Shown: positions 24,079-57,630 of the stretch, one piece after another | Numbering within the stretch: position 1 is the first letter of the stretch | How the letters are laid out: each line of letters opens with the position of its first letter | Assembly: GCA_002270565.1 (NCBI GenBank) | Contig: NQMI01000134.1 | Span: 65,972 to 129,971, forward strand | Source of the DNA: Stenocarpella maydis | Taxonomy: Eukaryota; Ascomycota; Sordariomycetes; Diaporthales; Diaporthaceae | Reading direction: 5' to 3' | Length of the DNA: 64,000 bases | The notes under the pieces: model-generated | The model's database searches: none | Seen by the model: only the letters and a program-made list of their open reading frames with translations | Told to the model about the DNA's origin: nothing | Made by a program: the position numbers and the translations under genes

Positions 24079-27000
24079 TCAGTCAAAACTTATGAGAAGG
24101 TCCTCTTCCTCCTCCGCCTCATCCCTCAATGGCATCGCGGGCTCAGTCGGATCACCAGTACCATCGACGCCGAAAGAGATCAAAGACTCGACATCATCTC
24201 CAATGATCTTTTGCCATCGTTTTGGAACGGTTGGTACATTCAAGGCGGCTACATCAGTCCGGCTTCGTCCTCGCCTAATGCCCAGAACCTCTGCCTCGAA
24301 CCCAAGGTCAGACTCGCCCATCAACGAAACACAGTCTGCGGCGGCTCCAACCCCGGCTGGCTCAACCGGACCGCGAAGGTTGATCAGAGACTGAGAGGTA
24401 TCCATGTTGCTGGTGGCGAGGGTATTCCTAGATAGGGCACGCTGGTACTGGGTTCGCTGGTCGGGCCTATTCTGGGGCAGAGACCGATCTTGGACCTGTT
24501 TGCGCTGGCCTTGGCGTCGAACATTGCTTTTTCCACAGTCAACCCGAGAGCGTTTGCCTCTTGGCGGGTTACGACCTTGGTGTTGAGGCTGTGATCGTTT
24601 CTGATTGTCCACTCCGTGACGGCCAGCAGTTTTCCGGGTGTTGGGCGGCGCGGGATTCTTGGGTTGGAATCCAACCAGAGATTGAGCTTGTTCGCGACGG
24701 TGACCAGTCAATGGGCTGTCAGTCTGCACAAAAGGCTTGGCGCAAGATCCACCCCAGGCGTCAACTTCATCGGGAGATGGGTTCCGGCTATTTGTCGATG
24801 CAGAAATTTCGGGTTGATGTCCACCTGGGTGATCATGGTGCTCGGGATGCCGACCAACTGTTCGGCTGTGAGCTGGTCCAGGAGGGTCAGGGTGAGATCT
24901 ACCTTGAGTTCCAACCTGGCCCTGGCGGACTCGCACTCCGTCAAGGTTTGATATGGGGATGAAGTGCTCATTGATGCTGCTTATCTCGGGAGCTGCGGAA
25001 GGATTCTGCGGTGTGTCAAACTGAATCAACGGCTGCTCGACCATGGTATGTGTTGCCTTGAGTCGAGCCTCACGGATTGCGTCGTCATGCACCTGGGGGT
25101 TCCCACTGAACTCGAGCCATTTTTCCGGACTCCGCTCGCCGCTCTGCGCTGGAATAGTGGGCGGGAGTGAACTAGCGACCTCCATGTGAAGCAGGGCCAA
25201 GCGTTGCTGGGCTTCAAGAGCCCTGGAAAGATCACAATCCTCACAGCATCGGCAGGGGTCAGTGCAAACTCCGGAGCACTTGTGGCAACAGTCAAGAATC
25301 TTTGTGCAGGGCTCAAGACATGGAAGCCTCTCGTGGGGAGTCCTGTGAATCACTGTGAGGAACTAAAACCTAGTAGAGGTAAGGAAAGTGAATAGATTAG
25401 AGAACTTACACGTGACAAGAGAGGACACAGTTGTGTCCGCAAGGAAGTTTGGCCTGGCATTTAATCCAGCATCCGCCAGCATTGCCGATGAAGCTGTCGG
25501 GCGACTTCATCCAGATTTCGTTCGTGCTGTTCTCATCGTTGTGATTTTGGCAGACCAGCGGCAGCCCTTTGCCCATAGCAACGCGGTACTGATCTGCGAA
25601 ACCGTTCCAAACCGGGCCCCAGGTCTTGAAGGACTGCGTGGTTGCCTGGAAGAGGTTCTCCTTGTTGCCGAACATGAAGAATCCACGACGAGCTCTGCTG
25701 ATGGCAACTGTTGCACGGTTCAGGCTTTCAACAAAGCCCACTCGCTTGGCATCGTATTGCGTAGGGGGACTTCGGACAAGGGAAAGGAGGACGATCTCGT
25801 TTTCTTCTCCCTGGTAAGAGTCGACTGTGGCGACGTTGAAACGGCGTGCGCCTACTGCCACAGCCTCTCGTAGAAGTTGGAGAATCAACTTCTTCTGTCC
25901 GCAGTAGTAGGTGAGCACAGTTATCTCTGCAGCCTTCATGCCGTTCTGAACCAGGTACTTTATGAAAGCGACGATCATCAGTGCCTCTTGGCGGTTGAGC
26001 TTGCTATTTTCAGCATCCGTGTCCTCGGGCCACTCATGCGTGAAGAACCAGGTGCGCCGAGAACCCATGCCTGGAATGAGCGGGCGATTGGTATTATCCG
26101 TGACAAGAGGGTGATCTTGCAGCTTGGGATAGTACTGCTGCACGATGTAGCTCAGCTCTGGCGCCATACGGCGTTGGAGGTCGAGCATGGTGTAAGGAAT
26201 ATGATTTCGGACCAAGCGCTGAAACAGCGAGACGTTGAGGTTGAAGGGCTCACCCCCAAGACGGGCGATATCGCAACTAGGCGGAAGCTGCTGGTGATCG
26301 CCGACGAGGATTAACTGGTCGAGACTGGGGAACAGGGCAGCGGTCACATTTGCCTCTCGGGTCTCGGCAGCCTCTTCGATCAGAAGGATTCGTGCGCCAG
26401 TGGCAGCCAGGAAACCCCGATATTTGGTCAATCCGGTTGTAGTGCAGCCAATTATATCGATGCAGTGTTTCTTCAGGATGGTTAGATCGCTGAACCACTT
26501 GTTGAACTTTTGCTCTTTTGCATTACTAACAGCCTGTTGGAGTATCTCGTGAAACTTGTTGACCGATGCCTCTCTCAGCCTGGACTGAAGAAGTTGGTAG
26601 ACCCCACCGCGGAGCTGAATTTGGATCTGGAAGAGGTCTTCATTGCTGGCAAGAGCGGCAGCACATCGGGTCTGCCAGCTGGGGACGCGGGGCGTATTTC
26701 CAGTGTAATGGCTGCCCAGAGGGATCCAAGTCCCATACAGACGATCGTCGTCGTCGTCGGCTGGGCCATTTTCCATGTCTGGATCCAGCTCAACATCACG
26801 CTCGTCAATAGCTTCTTCTTCTTCAAATTCGAGGTCTTCGGGCGGCTGGCGCACGCGTTCGATGCGCTCTTCAGCCAGCCAGGTCTGCATTGCTGGCTCG
26901 TCATCGTTGCCTTCCCAGCCGTCGCTCGACAAGGATTCGAACTGGGCCTCGTTGATGACGGCAGCATCAAGAAGAGTCTGGGGGTCCAGCAATTCCTGGC

Positions 27001-28364
27001 CGCCAAACACGCCGTTGACGAGATCACTGAAGGCTTCGACGTTCTGCAGGCGGGCTTTCTCAAGCGACTTGTGCTTGGCCCTTCCGTCTCCAGCGGCCTT
27101 GCCGAGCGACTTCCGAAGGTGAAAGAATGTGCGTTCCTTGATGACTTCGTTTTCTGTGCGGCCTCCCACGCGCAAGATGTTGGCCCGGGCAGAATGACAG
27201 TAGATCAGTAGCTGATCTAGGGCGTGGTTCGTCTGGGCGGCGACGATCACTGGAGGGTCACCAGGCTGGCGATTTGCAAGGATAGTGTTCAGAGCCTGGA
27301 CTGAGGTAAACGTCTTGCCGGTACCAGGAGGGCCCTGGATGACGGCCAGCTCATTGGTGGCCATGCGTTGGAGGGCCTCGAGCTGGGACGAATCAAGGCT
27401 CGTGTACTGCTGGATACCCTGCTGCGAGAGAGGCCGCCTCATATCACACTTGTCGTACTGCTTTGCTATTTGCTGGAAGAGCAAATTCTCCAGCTCCTTG
27501 CTGCCAGACGCCCGCTTCTGCTGGGCCGGACTGAGCTGGGTGATGAGACATGATAAGTCCATGTGAGGGTTCTGGGTGACGGAGCGCGACAGCCGGTTAT
27601 GGCGGTCGAGGTCAACTAGATACTTCCCAAAAGCCGAAGTCTCGCCGGCGGCGAGCTGGAGCCCAATCATAGCATGGCGAGCGGCCTCGTAGAAGCCATT
27701 GCGGGATTCGATCATGACGAGCTCCAGGTCTGGATCTATGACGGCGCTCTCTGCGCACGCCCAGATGATGTCGATTGTGGGTGGATTCTGGTCAAGTCCA
27801 CCCTGTATGGGGCGCTGTGCCACGATGGCGACGCGGCAGTCGGACTGAAAGTTGTCGGTTGAGAGGGCGACGATGCGGCCAGGTGTAAGCCGCTTTGACT
27901 GCTTCCACAAGATCTTCAGACCGGCGCGGCGGGTCGAAAAACTGATTCGGCACAGGGGGCCAAGCTTCGTCATGAGATAGCCTTTGACGAAGACCTGGAC
28001 ATGTCAGAGGTGGGAATGGCCGAGCGGTAGCAACGGGTCGACGACCTACCTTGGTGTAGACAGATGTGTTCTGGTCATCGGTCATGGCGGGGGTAGACCT
28101 GAACTCATTGACGGAGAATCGAAGCCCCTCGACGGCCTCGAAACGGAGGATCTTGTAAAGAGCCTCGAGGTAGTGGGCCTTTGAGTCGAAGGAGGTGTCG
28201 ATCGGGAAGGACGGGAGGTCATTTGTGGTGGCAGCCGGGTCGAGCAGCTCTGAGGATGCTGGGAACTCTGGGAGCTGCTGCCAGGGCTCCGCACCGTGCG
28301 GCTGGAGAGGGTCGTAGAAGACGTGGTCACGAATAATGGTGGCCGCGTCTGGATTGGTCGCCAT
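24079..28364 (-). CDS. UPF1-like SF1 helicase with NF-X1 zinc fingers (ZNFX1/Hrr1 type)
   Basis: Large RNA/DNA helicase, about 1393 residues. Exons are 28050-28364, 25412-27994 and 24079-25362; the 55-bp first intron is clear. The second (25363-25411) is the phase-consistent choice among several acceptors. Helicase motifs are Walker A GPPGTGKT (326-333), LLIEEAAE (Walker B-like), GDHQQLPPS, DLQRRMAPELS, VDSYQGEE and NRATVAISRARRG. An acidic insert splits the first RecA-like domain. The Cys/His region CGHNCVLSCH is continued after the intron by CLEPCTKILDCCHKC and CRCCEDC, as in NF-X1 fingers. The last 330 residues are low-complexity, Pro/Gln/Arg-rich and unlike the rest. In Schizosaccharomyces, Hrr1 of this family acts in RNAi-directed heterochromatin, and ZNFX1 in animals binds small-RNA targets; a similar nuclear role is inferred. 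The start is the ATG after a polyproline-coding leader. Confidence 0.9.
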
Positions 28365-48818: not shown

Positions 48819-50806
48819 TCAAACCAGGAGCACCGGCTTCTCCTCAGACCCCAGATTCGCGCCCAACAGAGTCGCCACGCCAACACGCTCATAATACTCC
48901 TCCGGCCGATCCGACAACAGGCGAAAAGAGCGATTGGTGACAGGACGGACCAACAAGACATAGTGGTCAACCTCATCCCCATCTCCAACCCACACCTCCT
49001 TGCCCAACACAACACATCTCCACGAGTCGTCGAGAGCCTCAGGAGGCTCTAGAGCATCGAGCACAGCCCTGTCTTTCAGCACGGCAACGTCCAACTGCAA
49101 CTTCCTCGCCCTCAACTCCAGGGCCCAGTACGGAGCGCCTGGAGGCCCACGTTCGTACTCGGTCCACACGATCCCGCCAAAGTCGATGTCCAAGAAGGTT
49201 ATGCCGCCGCTATACGCCATCCAGGACCAAGACGGCGGCGGCCTGGCACTGTCGTCACCATAATCAATACCTCTGAGCGAGCCCGGCCACGCGGCACGCC
49301 AGAGGAGCGTCCTCGCGGGCCAGCGCCAAAACACACCATGGTCGACGTCCGACTTGAAGACGCGGGCGATGCGCCGCTGCAGGCCCGCGATGGCGTGCGG
49401 GCGGTCCGTCTCCCGCGACAGCGCCAGGGCCGAGTAGGCCGAGTAGAAGTGCTGCAGGAGCCGGGTCCGCTCGTCCTTGTAGAACTGCAGGGCAGAGTGG
49501 GGGAAGTTGCTGTCGCCGAGGAAGTGAGACTGCGGGCTGCGTAGTAGCTTCAGTCAGCGGTGTGCATGCCAATCCAGGGGGCTCTGAGGGCTGGGTGGCT
49601 GGGGTTTACTTTCTCAGGTGGGCCAGCGTCTCGCAGACGACGCCGTCGCCGCACTCCCAGTAGACCTGCGTGGAGGTGAAGAACATGGTCCGCCGGGACA
49701 GGGCTCGCTCCTGCAGGACCCACCCGCGCGAGCTGAGGATGCTCTGGTCGACGTCGGTGGCGAAGTCATCGATAGCCTCCGCGAGATAGAGACGCCCTGC
49801 AGACGTTGCGAGACTGACAACATCCCTTGGCTGCCTGGGGCCAAGGAACCCGACGAGGGAAGACGATGCCGAGCTTGCCGCAATGGTGCAGTGTGCGTTG
49901 TTGAACACATCTTCCATTCTTCCGGACTCTCTTAACCAGTCTTCTGCATTTCTCTGGATGATACAGAGAGAGTCGATCCAGAGGTATCGCACGCCAAATG
50001 CGCGCGTGGTCCGGACGGCGTCCCTGAAAGTCGCCGGCATCTGGTCGTACGGAATATCTGCCATCCGCTGGTCGAGGTTGCTTTGGTATGTACAGAACCT
50101 CTGGTCGTTACTCATCTGGCCCCAGCAGTGACTTAGAGCAATGTAGCAGTATTGCTCGTCCTGGTCGGTTTCGATGAGCCGGATGGGTTCCTCGCCGTTC
50201 GTCCCCACGTCGATCAGTCTTGTGGGCGGTTCCGTTGGTGACTTAGAGTCATCTTGAGGTCTCATACAGTCATGCCATTCATTGCAGTGGCGCATGACTG
50301 ATTTCAGCAAGCCGAATTGTTCAGGACTGCCTGGTTCAGGCAGTAGAGGAAGCCCGCATTGGGCGAACGACAGCGAGGGCGGAACGGGCGTGGAGACTAG
50401 GAGACAAGGTTAGGTTCATTGCTGGTCTGAAAAAACTACTTGGGCTGGTCAATGTACCTGGATCATGATAAATTGAGACTATGGGCCGACCACTTGCAAG
50501 TGGATGCACCATGATAGTTGATCCAACTCGAGCGAACGTCAGAGGTTGTGCGGGCTCGATGTTCAAGGCTGAAAGACGGCGGCCAAGGAAGTTGCACAGA
50601 TCGCACTCTGAAGCCGGGTCGCAGAAGTCGGGCAAGCCTTCCTCGATCTCGCAAAGTCGTAGCAAAGCGCCTTTAACCTTACAAGTAGTGCCAACGCGGC
50701 CTGGGCACTCTTCTAGCTGACGGGGTTGAGGCCACTGGGGCTCCAGGTCTCCGAGAAGCTCAGCCGACAAAGAGGAGTCGTTCACAGTCTCCCATTCGTC
50801 AACTAA
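48819..50806 (-). CDS. HET-domain protein (possibly the C-terminal half of a kinase-HET fusion)
   Basis: Exons 50458-50806, 49610-50396 and 48819-49536 (introns 61 and 73 bp, phases agree) encode about 618 residues. The heterokaryon-incompatibility (HET) domain shows its three landmark blocks: YIALSHCWG, RYLWIDSLCIIQ (with the conserved DSLCI) and GWVLQERALSRRTMFF followed by YWEC. In fungi, HET domains trigger growth arrest or cell death after non-self recognition. Ahead of the domain there is a Cys-containing segment (CDLCNFLGRRLSAL). No ATG opens the first exon; in-frame codons run up to an AG at 50807. The gene therefore needs upstream exons. The only ones I can see are three 3-nt microexons that lead into the kinase gene directly upstream, as annotated separately. 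If that chain is wrong, the true start is unknown. Confidence 0.85.
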
Positions 50807-51078
50807 CTTGCTAGTCCTCTGCTTGAGTCAGAGTTGGTATAACGGGCCAACGATAACCATATGGGGACATACCAGCTGCTTGAGGGTCAGCTCAGCTTGG
50901 TCAAGATTTAGTTTCAGGGGGCCCTGGGGTCGGTCTACTTACATTCTATGTATTGAAATAAAACCATGCTTGTCAGTAAGAAGAACTCGCACTCATGTCA
51001 CAAACAGGCAAGAACTCACGTACTACAAATTATTAGTCTTCATGGAATCAAGAAAACATTGCCGCACCGCCACTTACT
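50806..51078 (-). other. Chain of three candidate 3-nt microexons linking kinase and HET genes
   Basis: Read on the minus strand from the kinase: exon end CGA, intron GTAAGT...TTTGTAG (51023-51077, 55 bp), microexon TAC (51020-51022). Next are intron GTGAGT...ACATAG (50946-51019, 74 bp) and microexon AAT (50943-50945), then intron GTAAGT...AAGCAG (50876-50942, 67 bp) and microexon CTG (50873-50875). Last is intron GTATGT...AGCAAG (50807-50872, 66 bp), then the HET exon. Each intron has a branch-like CTAAT, ACTGAC, GCTGAC or CTGACT element. All junctions are phase 0, so kinase and HET frames join without a stop. An alternative last acceptor at AAGCAG (50816-50821) is also in frame. One long intron, or nested (twin) introns, would give almost the same protein. 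Confidence 0.5.
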
Positions 51079-52818
51079 CGTTGGGAGATGGGGAAGATGT
51101 CAGCGTCGGCTACCGCGGCCGTGGGTTCCCTAGGCTCGGTCAGTACCTCCATCTCATCATCCCACAGATAGCAAGGGTTGGTAGAACAATTCTCTGAGAT
51201 TCCCTCCAAGCTCTCCAGGAATCCGGCAATGTATTTTCTTTCCTTCACCGACGGGACGAGCAATTGATTCTTCACCAACACCAACAGGTCTCGTAGAACA
51301 GCGGGAAGCTTGCGGTCTTTAAGGAGCTCGCGGACGAATTGATGGACTGCTGGACGCAGTACCGGATAGTCGTCATCATATTGTTCCCAGTACCGATCGA
51401 CTCCCGGTTTGCAATCTCGGCCGCGTTCCGTGTCGAGCCTCTTCAAGCCGTCGCGGCCATGTCGCAGCCAGGTGATGAACTCGAGTAGTACGCATCCGAG
51501 TGACCACGAGTCGTACCTGCGGGAGATTATGCGTAGCTTTCCGTTCTCGCCCTTCTCCGGCACTTCGATCTCGGGTGGTGTGTACCGCTGGGTTCCGGTC
51601 CTGTTGGTGGTTGGGTCATTGTTGTTCTTGCGGACCTCCGTCTCGAAGGCGTGGTACTTTGCGATACCCACATCCGCGATCACCAAGGTGCCCAATTCGG
51701 AACCCTCGGAGTCGTTGAATCGGAGTATGTTCGCGGGCTTCAAGTCGCCGTGTCGAATACTTTCCCCGCTCACTTTCCCGTGTAGCTTGGCGAGGCCACG
51801 TGTGAGCCCCAGGATTTGATCCCAAGCCCATCGCCGAGTCTCCTCGCTCGCAGGGTTGGTATGGCCACTCCAAAGCTGAAGAAGGTTGCCTTTTGGAGCC
51901 CAAGGGAACACAATACACCGCTCAGACCCTCTTTCGTACACTGCAATAGCCTGAATGAGATGGGCATCTTTGAGGGCCCTCATCCTCTTCAGAGTCGTCA
52001 CCTCCTTCTCGAAGAACTTCTCAAGTTCTTCGTCCGAGGCCCCATTCACTCTTTGTAATTGCTTGACAGCAACCTCAAAAAGACGTGGAGAATCCGGAAC
52101 CTACAACTCGAACAATCAAGATTGATACTCTGGGCATGATATTTCGAAGCTTGGGCTTTCTTACCTCACGCAAGTGGATGTCGGCATGGCTCGATCCCAA
52201 TTTCAAATGCTCCCTGCGGAGCCCAACCCTGAATACCTTGCCAAAGTTACCACTGGCAGGAGCACCTGCCGGTATCTGGACGAATGGTAGCGGGCGTCTG
52301 GGGGAAAGGCCTTGGTGGAGGAATTGCCTCGTGTTAAAGATGACAGCATAGAACCGCCACTGCTCCGTGATGAAGCGTGATAGGTCTGACCCATTCCATT
52401 CTCTCTTGTTGTGTCCTTTAACGAAGGCATGTGGTGACAGCTTCGGTTTGTTTGTGGGATCTGCTAGGGAAGTGGTCTTCCAGCTATTTTTCGTCTTGTT
52501 CTGGTGTTGTTGTATCGGAAGATGACAGTCCTTAACTTCCTCCTTGCACAAGACTTTGATCTTCGCCACAAGCCCGCACCAAGACAGTGTGAGGAAAATA
52601 CGAGGATTCTTGTGCGCGTAATCCAGAAGGTCGGCCTGTTCCTGGGTGTTTAGGGAGCCAATGTGCGGCTTTATCGTCTCCCCCACTCGGTCTTCCGTCA
52701 TCACCATTTTGAACGCATCCTGCGGAAGATAAGCAGGGTTGCGAAGTGAATCTTTATTGTCCTCGACTTCGTCTTCGCAGAGGTCGTTAATAGCGTCCCA
52801 AATCGCGTGCGCCATCAT
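51048..52818 (-). CDS. Protein kinase with fungal N-terminal domain (possibly fused to HET)
   Basis: Exons 52165-52818 and 51078-52100 over a 64-bp intron; without the microexon chain the frame would end at 51048, giving 568 residues. An N-terminal region of about 160 residues (YLPQDAF..., then WNGSDLSRFITEQWRFYAVIF) has no domain I can name but recurs in the kinase at 54.8 kb. The kinase domain has the glycine loop SGNFGKVFRV and Lys231 in EVAVK. Its catalytic loop is RHGDLKPANIL (Asp337; HGD rather than HRD), the metal loop is ADVGIAK (DVG rather than DFG), and TQRYTPPEIE and YDSWSLGCVLLEF follow. The core Lys, Asp and Asn are kept, so activity is possible. The same-strand HET gene starts at once downstream, which suggests a shared signalling role. 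Confidence 0.85.
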
Positions 52819-54840: not shown

Positions 54841-57630
54841 ATGGTTCAAAGATGGCACTTTCCAGACATGTAAGTCAACCTCGGGATCCACAGAAGTCGC
54901 ACAACCATCTGCAGTTTCTTCTGTAACTTATTTGGACAGTCACTAAACCCACAACGATTAATTTCAGGGCCCCAGGCAGTATCCTGTAGGCAAGCTGAAA
55001 CAGCCCACCACCACTGGATCACAAGGAAGAGCCGCTGAATGGGCAGGCCGCAACAATGCAATCTTACCAGCCCACACAGACTTGGACAAGACGGATCTGA
55101 GGGCCATAAAATCAAAGCTGGAAGATGGCCGCAAGGAGAGTGTGTCGTTTTTAGAGAACGAAAGCGACTGGTTCCTCCCCCGGAACCTTATTGAAGAAGT
55201 CCTGGCGGAGCCAACAATCCAATCTCTTCTAGAAAAGGACAAAACCTGCCGCACCCACCTAAACACCATTGTTGGTGACAAGAAACGCATCAAAATCTTC
55301 ACCATCCTGGTCCTAATGAACAGCACCAAATATCTTCCCCGCATTGTTCGGAAAGGAGTCTGGGACAATGACCTTCCCTTGAAAAAAGGATCCTTGGAAA
55401 GTATATTCCGGATTTTGGGAGAAAATTCAGGCGAGTACGTGAGCCGTTTCATCTATCACCAGTCACTGGTGGCTGTGCCCGTTTGGGACTTTACTGCCCC
55501 CGATACGGAAGAGATAGAAGATTACCCTTTGAGGTTGCACAACATGCCATTCCTCAAGAAGCAAAGACTTTCACGTGGCGGGCAAGGTCTGATTTGGAAG
55601 GTACAAATCCACCCAGCCCACTTCACGGGAACACGGACTGGCTCGGTATGTCTGTATCAGGTCTGACAACCTCTTGTCGAAATTTTTGCCTCGGACTAAT
55701 TACCGAGTTCTAGAGTCGCTGGGAACGCTTCCATAGAGGCCCCGAATTCGCTGTGAAGGAGTTCTCAAAGGAAGAAGAGTTCAGACAAGAACTTTCGGCC
55801 CTGAAGTTCTTCCACCAACCGAAGACCAAACACAAGCATCTGATCAGGGTCCTAGCAGCATATTCTCAGGGCAGAAGCCACTTCTTGATCCTCCCGCTGG
55901 CCAAAGGCAACCTCGTCGAGTTCCTCAGCCAGGACAGTCCGTTATCCAAGGATCCCATCTGGCTCCTGAGGCAGTGCTGCGGCCTCACGGACGGCCTGCG
56001 CAGGATACACAGGTGTAAAGCCCCAGAGGCCGTACCGTCGCCGCACGCCCGCGGGCGCAGGTTCATCCGGGGCCGGCACGGCGACATCAAGCCGCCAAAC
56101 ATACTCTGGTTCGCCGACGACGGCCCGGCCGGGGAGAACCGGCTGGTGCTCTCCGACTTCACGCTGATGCGCTTCCACGCGCAGGGGAGCGAGACCGACA
56201 CGCTGGTGGATATGGTCGGGCGGACCAGGACCTACCGCGCGCCCGAGCTCGACTCGTCCGGCGGCCGCCGGCGGGTCAGCCAGAAGTACGACACCTGGAG
56301 CCTGGGGTGCGTGTTCCTCGAGGTCGCCAGCTGCCACCTCGTCGGCTTCAAGGCGACGCTCGGGGAGAGGCACTTTGAGGGTGGTTCCGGCCGGGGGTAC
56401 GAGACCTTTAGCACCACCCGCGTGGTGGAGGATCCCACATATGAAGACAAGTATTTCATCCAAAGGGCGGGGGAGCGGACCGCGGAGGTAAAACAGTCGG
56501 TCAAGGATGTGAGATTGACGCTTCTACCTCCCTAACTAGATGGTTGGCGGGATTGTAACTGACTGTCACCAATACAGTGGTTCTCGTACCTGCAAGGACT
56601 GGGACATTGCTCCGCCGCCCTGTCTGACTTCTTGGATCTCATCCGGGATCACATGCTCGTCATCAACCCGGATGCACGGTGGGGGTCCAAGAAGGTGCTC
56701 CGGCGCCTGAGGGAGATACAGAACCAAAAGTCCAACCCTGAGCAATACTACCGGCCAGCTGGCACGAGGGGCACCTTCCATCCCAGCTCCTTTCTTCGCC
56801 CGTGGGACGAGTCCTCGTATAATCTACGGCTCTTGCATCGCCTTGACTACGACCCGGGCCGGGTGACCTTCTCCGGCTTGAAGCCCAGCCCCATTGATCA
56901 GGACCTTAAGCTCATTGAGGCCACCTTTCTTTCCCAGTCCTTCTCCTCTTCAGGAGATGGTCCAAGCCGCTCTCAGACCACCACGACAACCGGAACTGAC
57001 ACCGCACCAGAAGTTCAAAGCCACACTGGGTCGGAGACCTCGTCAGCTGCTGATGATGCCGGCTCAAGAGAGGCCTCCATAGACCTTGCGCGTGGTTCTT
57101 GTCAGGATGATCGGCCGCAACCGCCGTCCCAAACCGACACGACAGCACGGGCGCCGAGACTCGTCCAAGACACGTCCAGTATGGGCTCCTTGGAGTTATA
57201 CACACTCTTCACCCAACACGGCGCATCCGGGGACGCACAGTTCCTGCGAACCCCCTCCAGATCCCGCGGCCCTCCTTCCTCAGGGGCCACCAGCATCTTC
57301 ACGCACGACATGCGGCGGTCCGCGTCGAGCCGCACCGCGCAGTCCACCTTGGACCCGGACGACATCTCAGAGCAGGGCCAATCAGCCGTGGGGAAGTCCA
57401 TTCCAGCGCCGGGGGTGGATGAGATGGGGGATCGGGCCGCGGGTGAGGATCTGCAGGGGGGAGACGGAGGGGAGCCAGACCACGAGGCTGAGAGGGCGAG
57501 GATGGGCTCCTCACCAGGTGAGAGATTAACCATCAGGGGGGCTTGGGCGTCATTGCGAAGAAGGCTGAAGGCTGTGTGGAAGCGAGGTGGGAAGTTTGCC
57601 CGGCGAAAGACGGAGGATCTGCTGTCATGA
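54841..57630 (+). CDS. Protein kinase with fungal N-terminal domain, paralogue
   Basis: 848 residues from exons 54841-54869, 54976-55645, 55714-56508 and 56578-57630. The 29-nt first exon is joined through the acceptor at 54975, the only one in phase. The N-terminal region (FLPRNLIEEVLAEP..., DLPLKKGSLESIF, YVSRFIYHQSLVAVPVW) follows the same plan as the kinase at 51-52.8 kb. The kinase domain has GGQGLIWKV and Lys248 in EFAVK. Its catalytic loop is RHGDIKPPNIL (Asp357, HGD), the metal loop is SDFTLMR (DFT instead of DFG), and YRAPELD and YDTWSLGCVFLE follow. A C-terminal extension of about 250 residues is rich in Ser, Thr and Pro and ends with a basic segment (RRRLKAVWKRGGKFARRK). Loss of the DFG Gly is unusual and could weaken catalysis. 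It is transcribed away from the kinase/HET pair. Confidence 0.88.

Follow-up and report, generated by a model that had tools for sequence, protein, structure and literature searches.

A kinase-HET gene with candidate one-codon exons

We analysed a stretch of 64,000 nucleotides from Stenocarpella maydis (the window), whose minus strand carries a gene combining a protein kinase and a HET domain (Table 1). Under a splice model with three one-codon exons, this gene has an open frame of 3552 nt that contains one stop, the terminal one, and encodes 1183 amino acids. Given this model, Pfam places a Pkinase domain (Pfam accession PF00069) at residues 227–428 and a HET domain (Pfam accession PF06985) at residues 767–912, both over cut-off, and finds these two families only. 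Pkinase followed by HET in one protein is the arrangement of kinase-HET (tol-like) proteins. The kinase part holds VAVK, HGDLKPAN and DVG, which we take to be kinase motif residues, so that the kinase may plausibly be active.

Between the kinase and HET parts lie three blocks of the form AG/NNN/GT (slashes mark exon borders), with positions and strand as given in the first-pass annotation of this DNA. The nine bases of the three one-codon exons joined read TACAATCTG and encode Tyr, Asn and Leu. Exon 2 ends in CCAACGA, exon 6 starts with AGGACTAGC, and the context of the last acceptor is CAG/AGGACT. The introns of the gene measure, in order, 64, 55, 74, 67, 54, 61 and 73 nt. The four array introns are thus sized like the gene's other introns (64, 61 and 73 nt), as the annotation had noted, and its branch-like motif per array intron is found as CTRAY in all four. 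It had also described the HET exon as having no ATG of its own. This holds for the exon start, and the first in-frame Met lies far inside, in GSTIMVHP.

One detail of that model was revised. Its lengths of 55, 74 and 67 nt for the first three array introns stand. The fourth had been given as 66 nt, ending in an AAG acceptor, and is better read as 54 nt with an in-frame CAG acceptor 12 nt upstream, which adds the residues RTSK. We dropped AAG for CAG because RTSK begins the exon in homologues (RTSTLVDKW in record P0002; P numbers denote homologue records) and in a related copy in the same genome, C22 (RTRTLVNKW). With the acceptor moved, exon 6 is 361 nt rather than the 349 nt proposed earlier, and the coding sequence stays in frame as claimed. 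Retention of any one of the four array introns brings a stop before HET within 8–14 codons.

Table 1. Features of the kinase-HET gene and two further frames in the window. C14, C22 and C266 are related junctions in the same genome.
Feature	Positions	Strand	Description
Exon 1	52165..52818	minus	First ATG (52818) and start of the kinase region; from open frame and splice model
Exon 2	51078..52100	minus	Bulk of the protein kinase domain and linker to ..FPISQR; 1023 nt, phase 0
Array intron 1	51023..51077	minus	55 nt, GTAAGT..TAG, branch-like CTAAT; stop if retained
Candidate one-codon exon TAC (Tyr)	51020..51022	minus	AG/TAC/GTGAGT; each of the four related junctions has a TAC or TAT block; TAY/GTN in relatives
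Array intron 2	50946..51019	minus	74 nt, GTGAGT..TAG, branch-like CTGAC
Candidate one-codon exon AAT (Asn)	50943..50945	minus	AG/AAT/GTAAGT; AAT block in C14 and C22, absent from C266
Array intron 3	50876..50942	minus	67 nt, GTAAGT..CAG, branch-like CTGAC
Candidate one-codon exon CTG (Leu)	50873..50875	minus	AG/CTG/GTATGT; C22 counterpart is CCA
Array intron 4	50819..50872	minus	54 nt, GTATGT..CAG, branch-like CTGAC; first-pass version ended at 50807
Exon 6	50458..50818	minus	Start of the HET part, RTSKLVDEW..; 361 nt; matches homologues and C22
Exon 7	49610..50396	minus	HET domain, PF06985 residues 767–912
Exon 8	48819..49536	minus	Carries the stop codon
Helicase-type frame	25409-28003	minus	ZNFX1 and AAA_11/AAA_12 helicase domains
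Second Pkinase frame	55714-56532	plus	39% identical to the window-gene kinase over part of its length

Block series in related copies and in the genome

Searches of the same genome with the kinase, the HET N-terminus and the HET family (105 matches) identified three related copies, C14, C266 and C22, each of which carries successive 3-nt blocks at the corresponding junction. In C14 and C266, kinase and HET lie about 3 kb apart or less on the same strand. The C14 array has six units (GAC TAT AAT CAT ACG ACC, or DYNHTT), and its frame is open from the kinase through the array into a HET N-terminal exon of 343 nt, a length that is 1 mod 3, as are the 361 nt in the window. The C22 array has three units (TAC AAT CCA, or YNP). 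C22 was assigned as a copy from its HET part, where its only matches lie and which is interrupted by stops and changes of frame; the fetched stretch shows no kinase.

The C266 array has five units (TAT ACA CAT GTC CCT, or YTHVP), a reading that uses an upstream AAG acceptor, chosen by us partly for its likeness to the homologue P0169 (YRHVP). If the CAG acceptor is used and the kinase frame is left unchanged, the phase would be another and TAT would not encode Tyr. The C266 kinase is broken by a stop, and its frame misses phase 0 at the array. Given the AAG acceptor, an extra GAT block probably lies within the next exon. A TAC or TAT block recurs in all four junctions.

Although decayed, C22 (G000:C22:6500-9500) and C266 (G000:C266:142000-146500) still keep their AG/NNN/GT series. 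Several other matches were recorded alongside these copies. At C271, kinase and HET matches lie about 6 kb apart, with no block series. No HET part or array was seen near the second Pkinase frame of the window. Two kinase matches, G000:C34:83838-84470 and G000:C67:2524-3156, lie on different contigs yet are equal in score, identity and extent; the sequence was perhaps duplicated recently, or else assembled twice.

A chance origin of the block chain is unlikely, and we rejected it on simulations and on the absence of chains elsewhere. With a chain defined as [ACT]AG-NNN-GT(RNGN or AANN) blocks spaced 48–110 nt apart, simulation of this junction region under a first-order Markov model gave a chain of three in one of 20,000 sequences; the other three junctions gave none in 20,000 each. 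Chains of at least three are confined to the four related junctions among 688,718 strand-bases (both strands of 74 sources, comprising the window plus loci from elsewhere in its genome, some of them overlapping and together a small part of its 53.5 Mb). Outside the junctions, the same strand-bases hold seven isolated pairs of blocks.

The blocks are also specific in size. Across the four junctions (1,677 nt), AG-N(k)-GT occurs 18 times with k = 3 and, summed, 0–2 times with each other k from 0 to 18. These 18 include the C266 GAT block later placed inside the next exon, which leaves a final count of 17. In a background of 416,622 strand-bases k = 3 is not raised (157 occurrences; 125–177 for the remaining lengths between 0 and 12). 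This specificity would be hard to account for except by one-codon exons. Recursive splice sites, with an exon of length zero, misfit these signals: the four junctions contain a single AG directly before GT, which lies in C266 and not in the window gene, against 18 occurrences of length 3.

The array introns share signals rather than sequence. A CTRAY motif lies 8–45 nt ahead of the acceptor in 15 of 20 array introns (4 of 4 in the window, 6 of 7 in C14, 3 of 6 in C266 and 2 of 3 in C22). Among 253 pairs of 23 introns, we found no similarity beyond a shuffled null: the best pair scored 20 (null 99%, 19; null 99.9%, 24), and four pairs scored at least 19, with about 2.5 expected. Introners, or recent duplication of one intron, were rejected for this lack of similarity. 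Intron sequences have drifted while the splice signals and the Tyr codon persisted. Stwintrons, in which one intron interrupts a splice signal of another, were likewise rejected, as each of the four array introns of the window gene owns a donor, a branch motif and an acceptor.

The joint in homologues of other genera

We identified 267 proteins that match at E<=1e-3. All 120 of those listed carry both PF00069 and PF06985, and some are named ‘tol-like’. On these records the kinase-HET fusion itself is already known, and the earlier suggestion of a new architecture is rejected. The closest of the listed proteins is P0001 from Diaporthe vaccinii (75% identity, with the best local alignment covering 44% of the query). 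Used as a query against proteins, the reading frame of exon 6 gave no match. Xylaria multiplex P0030 is a kinase-HET record with added trypsin-family domains (Pfam accessions PF13365 and PF00089).

A Tyr stands at the joint in 11 of the 120 listed homologues, directly after the end of exon 2 in ten and after a stretch resembling a run-through intron in P0005. In nine of the 11, Val follows, against a base rate of 9.0% (385 of 4,298); the binomial value of 1.7e-8 is a guide only, since the homologue set was assembled after inspection. The Y-V joints read QYVS (Diaporthe vaccinii and P0005), QYVK (Colletotrichum asianum), EYVK (Xylaria hypoxylon) and, in five other Fusarium-type sequences, NYVT, EYVT, NYVN, NYVN and QYVR. 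The two joints with Tyr and no Val are EYPR (Fusarium falciforme) and DYNS (F. equiseti). The plain reading of Y-V in four genera would be TAY/GTN, a codon and a donor that annotation read through. The F. falciforme model P0004 has an E-Y-P-RTS joint, which resembles two one-codon exons or one 6-nt exon.

Similar read-through is seen in mechanically translated assemblies. In P0124 and P0156, the frame crosses the first array intron into ..Q/Y/VS... Five records (P0124, P0146, P0149, P0155 and P0156) have frames running at least 20 codons past the exon-2 donor, two of them with Q-Y-V; in the other three, which lack it (P0146, P0149 and P0155), an intron length not divisible by three perhaps shifts the frame. 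The loose donor pattern was found in 39 of the 44 records P0121–P0164 (VS 19, VG 14, VC 4, VR 1 and VP 1, the last a mis-hit).

Some contiguous joints have a Tyr at a similar place. Tyr lies 11 residues before a conserved Trp in both the window gene and C22, and 11–12 residues before it in 17 of 94 homologues, with about six expected at a Tyr frequency of 3.15%. The remaining 77 of the 94 have no Tyr there, and 26 of the 120 homologues have no aligned Trp, hence the 94 scored. The P0169 joint reads YRHVPLNQDDW. P0054 is a single frame of 1130 amino acids over kinase and HET on a contig of 3,611 nt, and its joint reads DEYNELHRRNLDDVW. This contig may be a transcript, as it runs across the positions at which the window gene has introns.

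We also predicted the structure of P0054 (40 sequences, mean pLDDT 81.7, pTM 0.57). The model has a low-confidence stretch between the kinase and HET parts (residues 455–519) and better order from about residue 521. A predicted helix (residues 507–518) closes this stretch and covers the YNELH segment. The low-confidence stretch and the helix before ordered residues suggest that the array would encode the last part of a linker, where it borders the HET part.

In many public models the exons are joined directly, with no microexons between them (P0002, P0006 and P0012 are examples), or the joint is a different one. Gene finders rarely allow exons of 3 nt, so these models are weak counter-evidence, and some skipping of microexons in relatives may be real.

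Interpretation and relation to known systems

These observations make it very probable that the window holds an intact kinase-HET gene of a known fungal family, in which single-codon exons for Tyr, Asn and Leu, arranged in tandem, encode the joint. The series of three phase-0 one-codon exons between kinase and HET, as first proposed, finds support in both sequence and comparison, which suggest that this highly unusual way of splicing is real and conserved. The short introns, of ordinary size, would be removed one by one through intron definition, with each 3-nt exon joined in to give the order kinase, linker, YNL, RTSKLVDEW.. and HET. As each unit is 3 nt in phase 0, skipping any of them would keep the frame, and retaining any array intron would put a stop ahead of HET. 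Related copies with three, five and six units suggest that the array is a family trait. Inclusion of the units in the main mRNA and the order of splicing are what we infer from the DNA. The available text of PMC12881547 describes HET domains as triggers of cell death related to TIR domains, and from such literature a HET-driven role in cell death may be expected for the window gene.

Two readings dispense with the array. A single intron of 259 nt (51077-50819) could join the kinase and HET exons and leave the AG/NNN/GT blocks unused. The three codons sum to 9 nt, so this direct join stays in frame, and it is the join that several public models of relatives contain (P0002, P0006 and P0012). It leaves unexplained the 3-nt size specificity and its recurrence in four junctions, as well as TAY/GTN in relatives and the Tyr that contiguous homologues show at the equivalent position, and 259 nt would far exceed this gene's other introns; we regard it as quite improbable. 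Separate kinase and HET genes are more doubtful still, and we give them hardly any weight. Exon 2 read through its donor does meet a stop near 51048, which favours such a division, yet the parts are fused in all 120 listed homologues, P0054 is one frame of 1130 amino acids across both, and no Met lies near the start of the HET exon.

Two further readings concern what the array would do. It could serve choice, with units included or skipped to give in-frame linker variants as in the truffle NACHT-ANK genes. This is compatible with the one-codon exon array preferred here, and we hold it to be a possibility, if an unlikely one. Every subset of units, all of them 3 nt in phase 0, stays in frame, unit number varies among copies, and accounts of the truffle genes offer an alternatively spliced precedent. 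The array donors are strong, however, which fits constant use, and there are 3–6 units only, against the ‘tens’ reported in truffle. Alternatively, hard splicing steps could act as a brake that holds full kinase-HET protein low and yields mostly kinase-only products, shielding the cell from HET. In favour of a brake, a retained array intron ends the frame within 8–14 codons, but retained-intron stops are common in any gene, and we consider this improbable. More speculatively, and with only slightly less weight than we give to choice, ascomycete kinase-HET genes could have long possessed, and still be changing, an array built of units of an intron and one codon, whose choice, gain and loss tune the linker codon by codon and hence the moment at which the kinase can fire HET. 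Splicing would then generate a variable part of a protein of non-self recognition, with an origin separate from that in truffle NACHT-ANK.

The one printed precedent that we found for a series of one-codon exons is in truffle receptor genes, in a search with most subscription journals outside it; the same search found no literature on microexons in kinase-HET genes. The NACHT-ANK (nank) genes of Tuber melanosporum are described as having tens of codon-sized, alternatively spliced microexons (Iotti et al. 2012, as cited in PMC3689799, PMC4986451 and PMC10197012). Going by these citing accounts, both systems are fungal gene families tied to non-self recognition in which 3-nt exons follow one another, and the size counts of the four junctions agree with the Tuber pattern of serial exons of exactly 3 nt. 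The same accounts give the Tuber genes tens of units, proven alternative splicing and a diversified sensor domain, whereas the family of the window gene has 3–6 units, predicted from DNA, at the kinase-HET joint, and its Tyr unit is met again in other genera. The window gene is also not of NACHT-ANK type, as Pfam shows kinase and HET only. No chain of three was found in NACHT loci of this genome (12 loci of 23 NACHT matches).

Other comparisons are more distant. Stwintrons, nested spliceosomal introns, are, in the sources available, likewise adjacent or complex introns of Sordariomycetes; unlike them as so described, each array intron of the window gene has a complete donor and acceptor, and adjacent introns are separated by one codon. 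Trichoderma virens Xlr2, in the available part of PMC11121469, also has a filamentous-ascomycete microexon with alternative inclusion, but this is a single microexon in a transcription factor rather than a series of one-codon exons.

One-codon exons in succession put exon recognition to an extreme test, since they leave the spliceosome hardly any exon sequence to bind. If arrays of codon-sized exons are conserved in a second family of cell-death genes, fungi would seem to employ them repeatedly in non-self recognition. Ascomycete kinase-HET (‘tol-like’, PF00069 and PF06985) proteins share domain order and sequence with the window gene, and the public models compared here differ from it in lacking the microexons or reading through them. 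A conserved array would mean that, in public models of such proteins, residues at the kinase-HET joint are often missing or wrongly placed.
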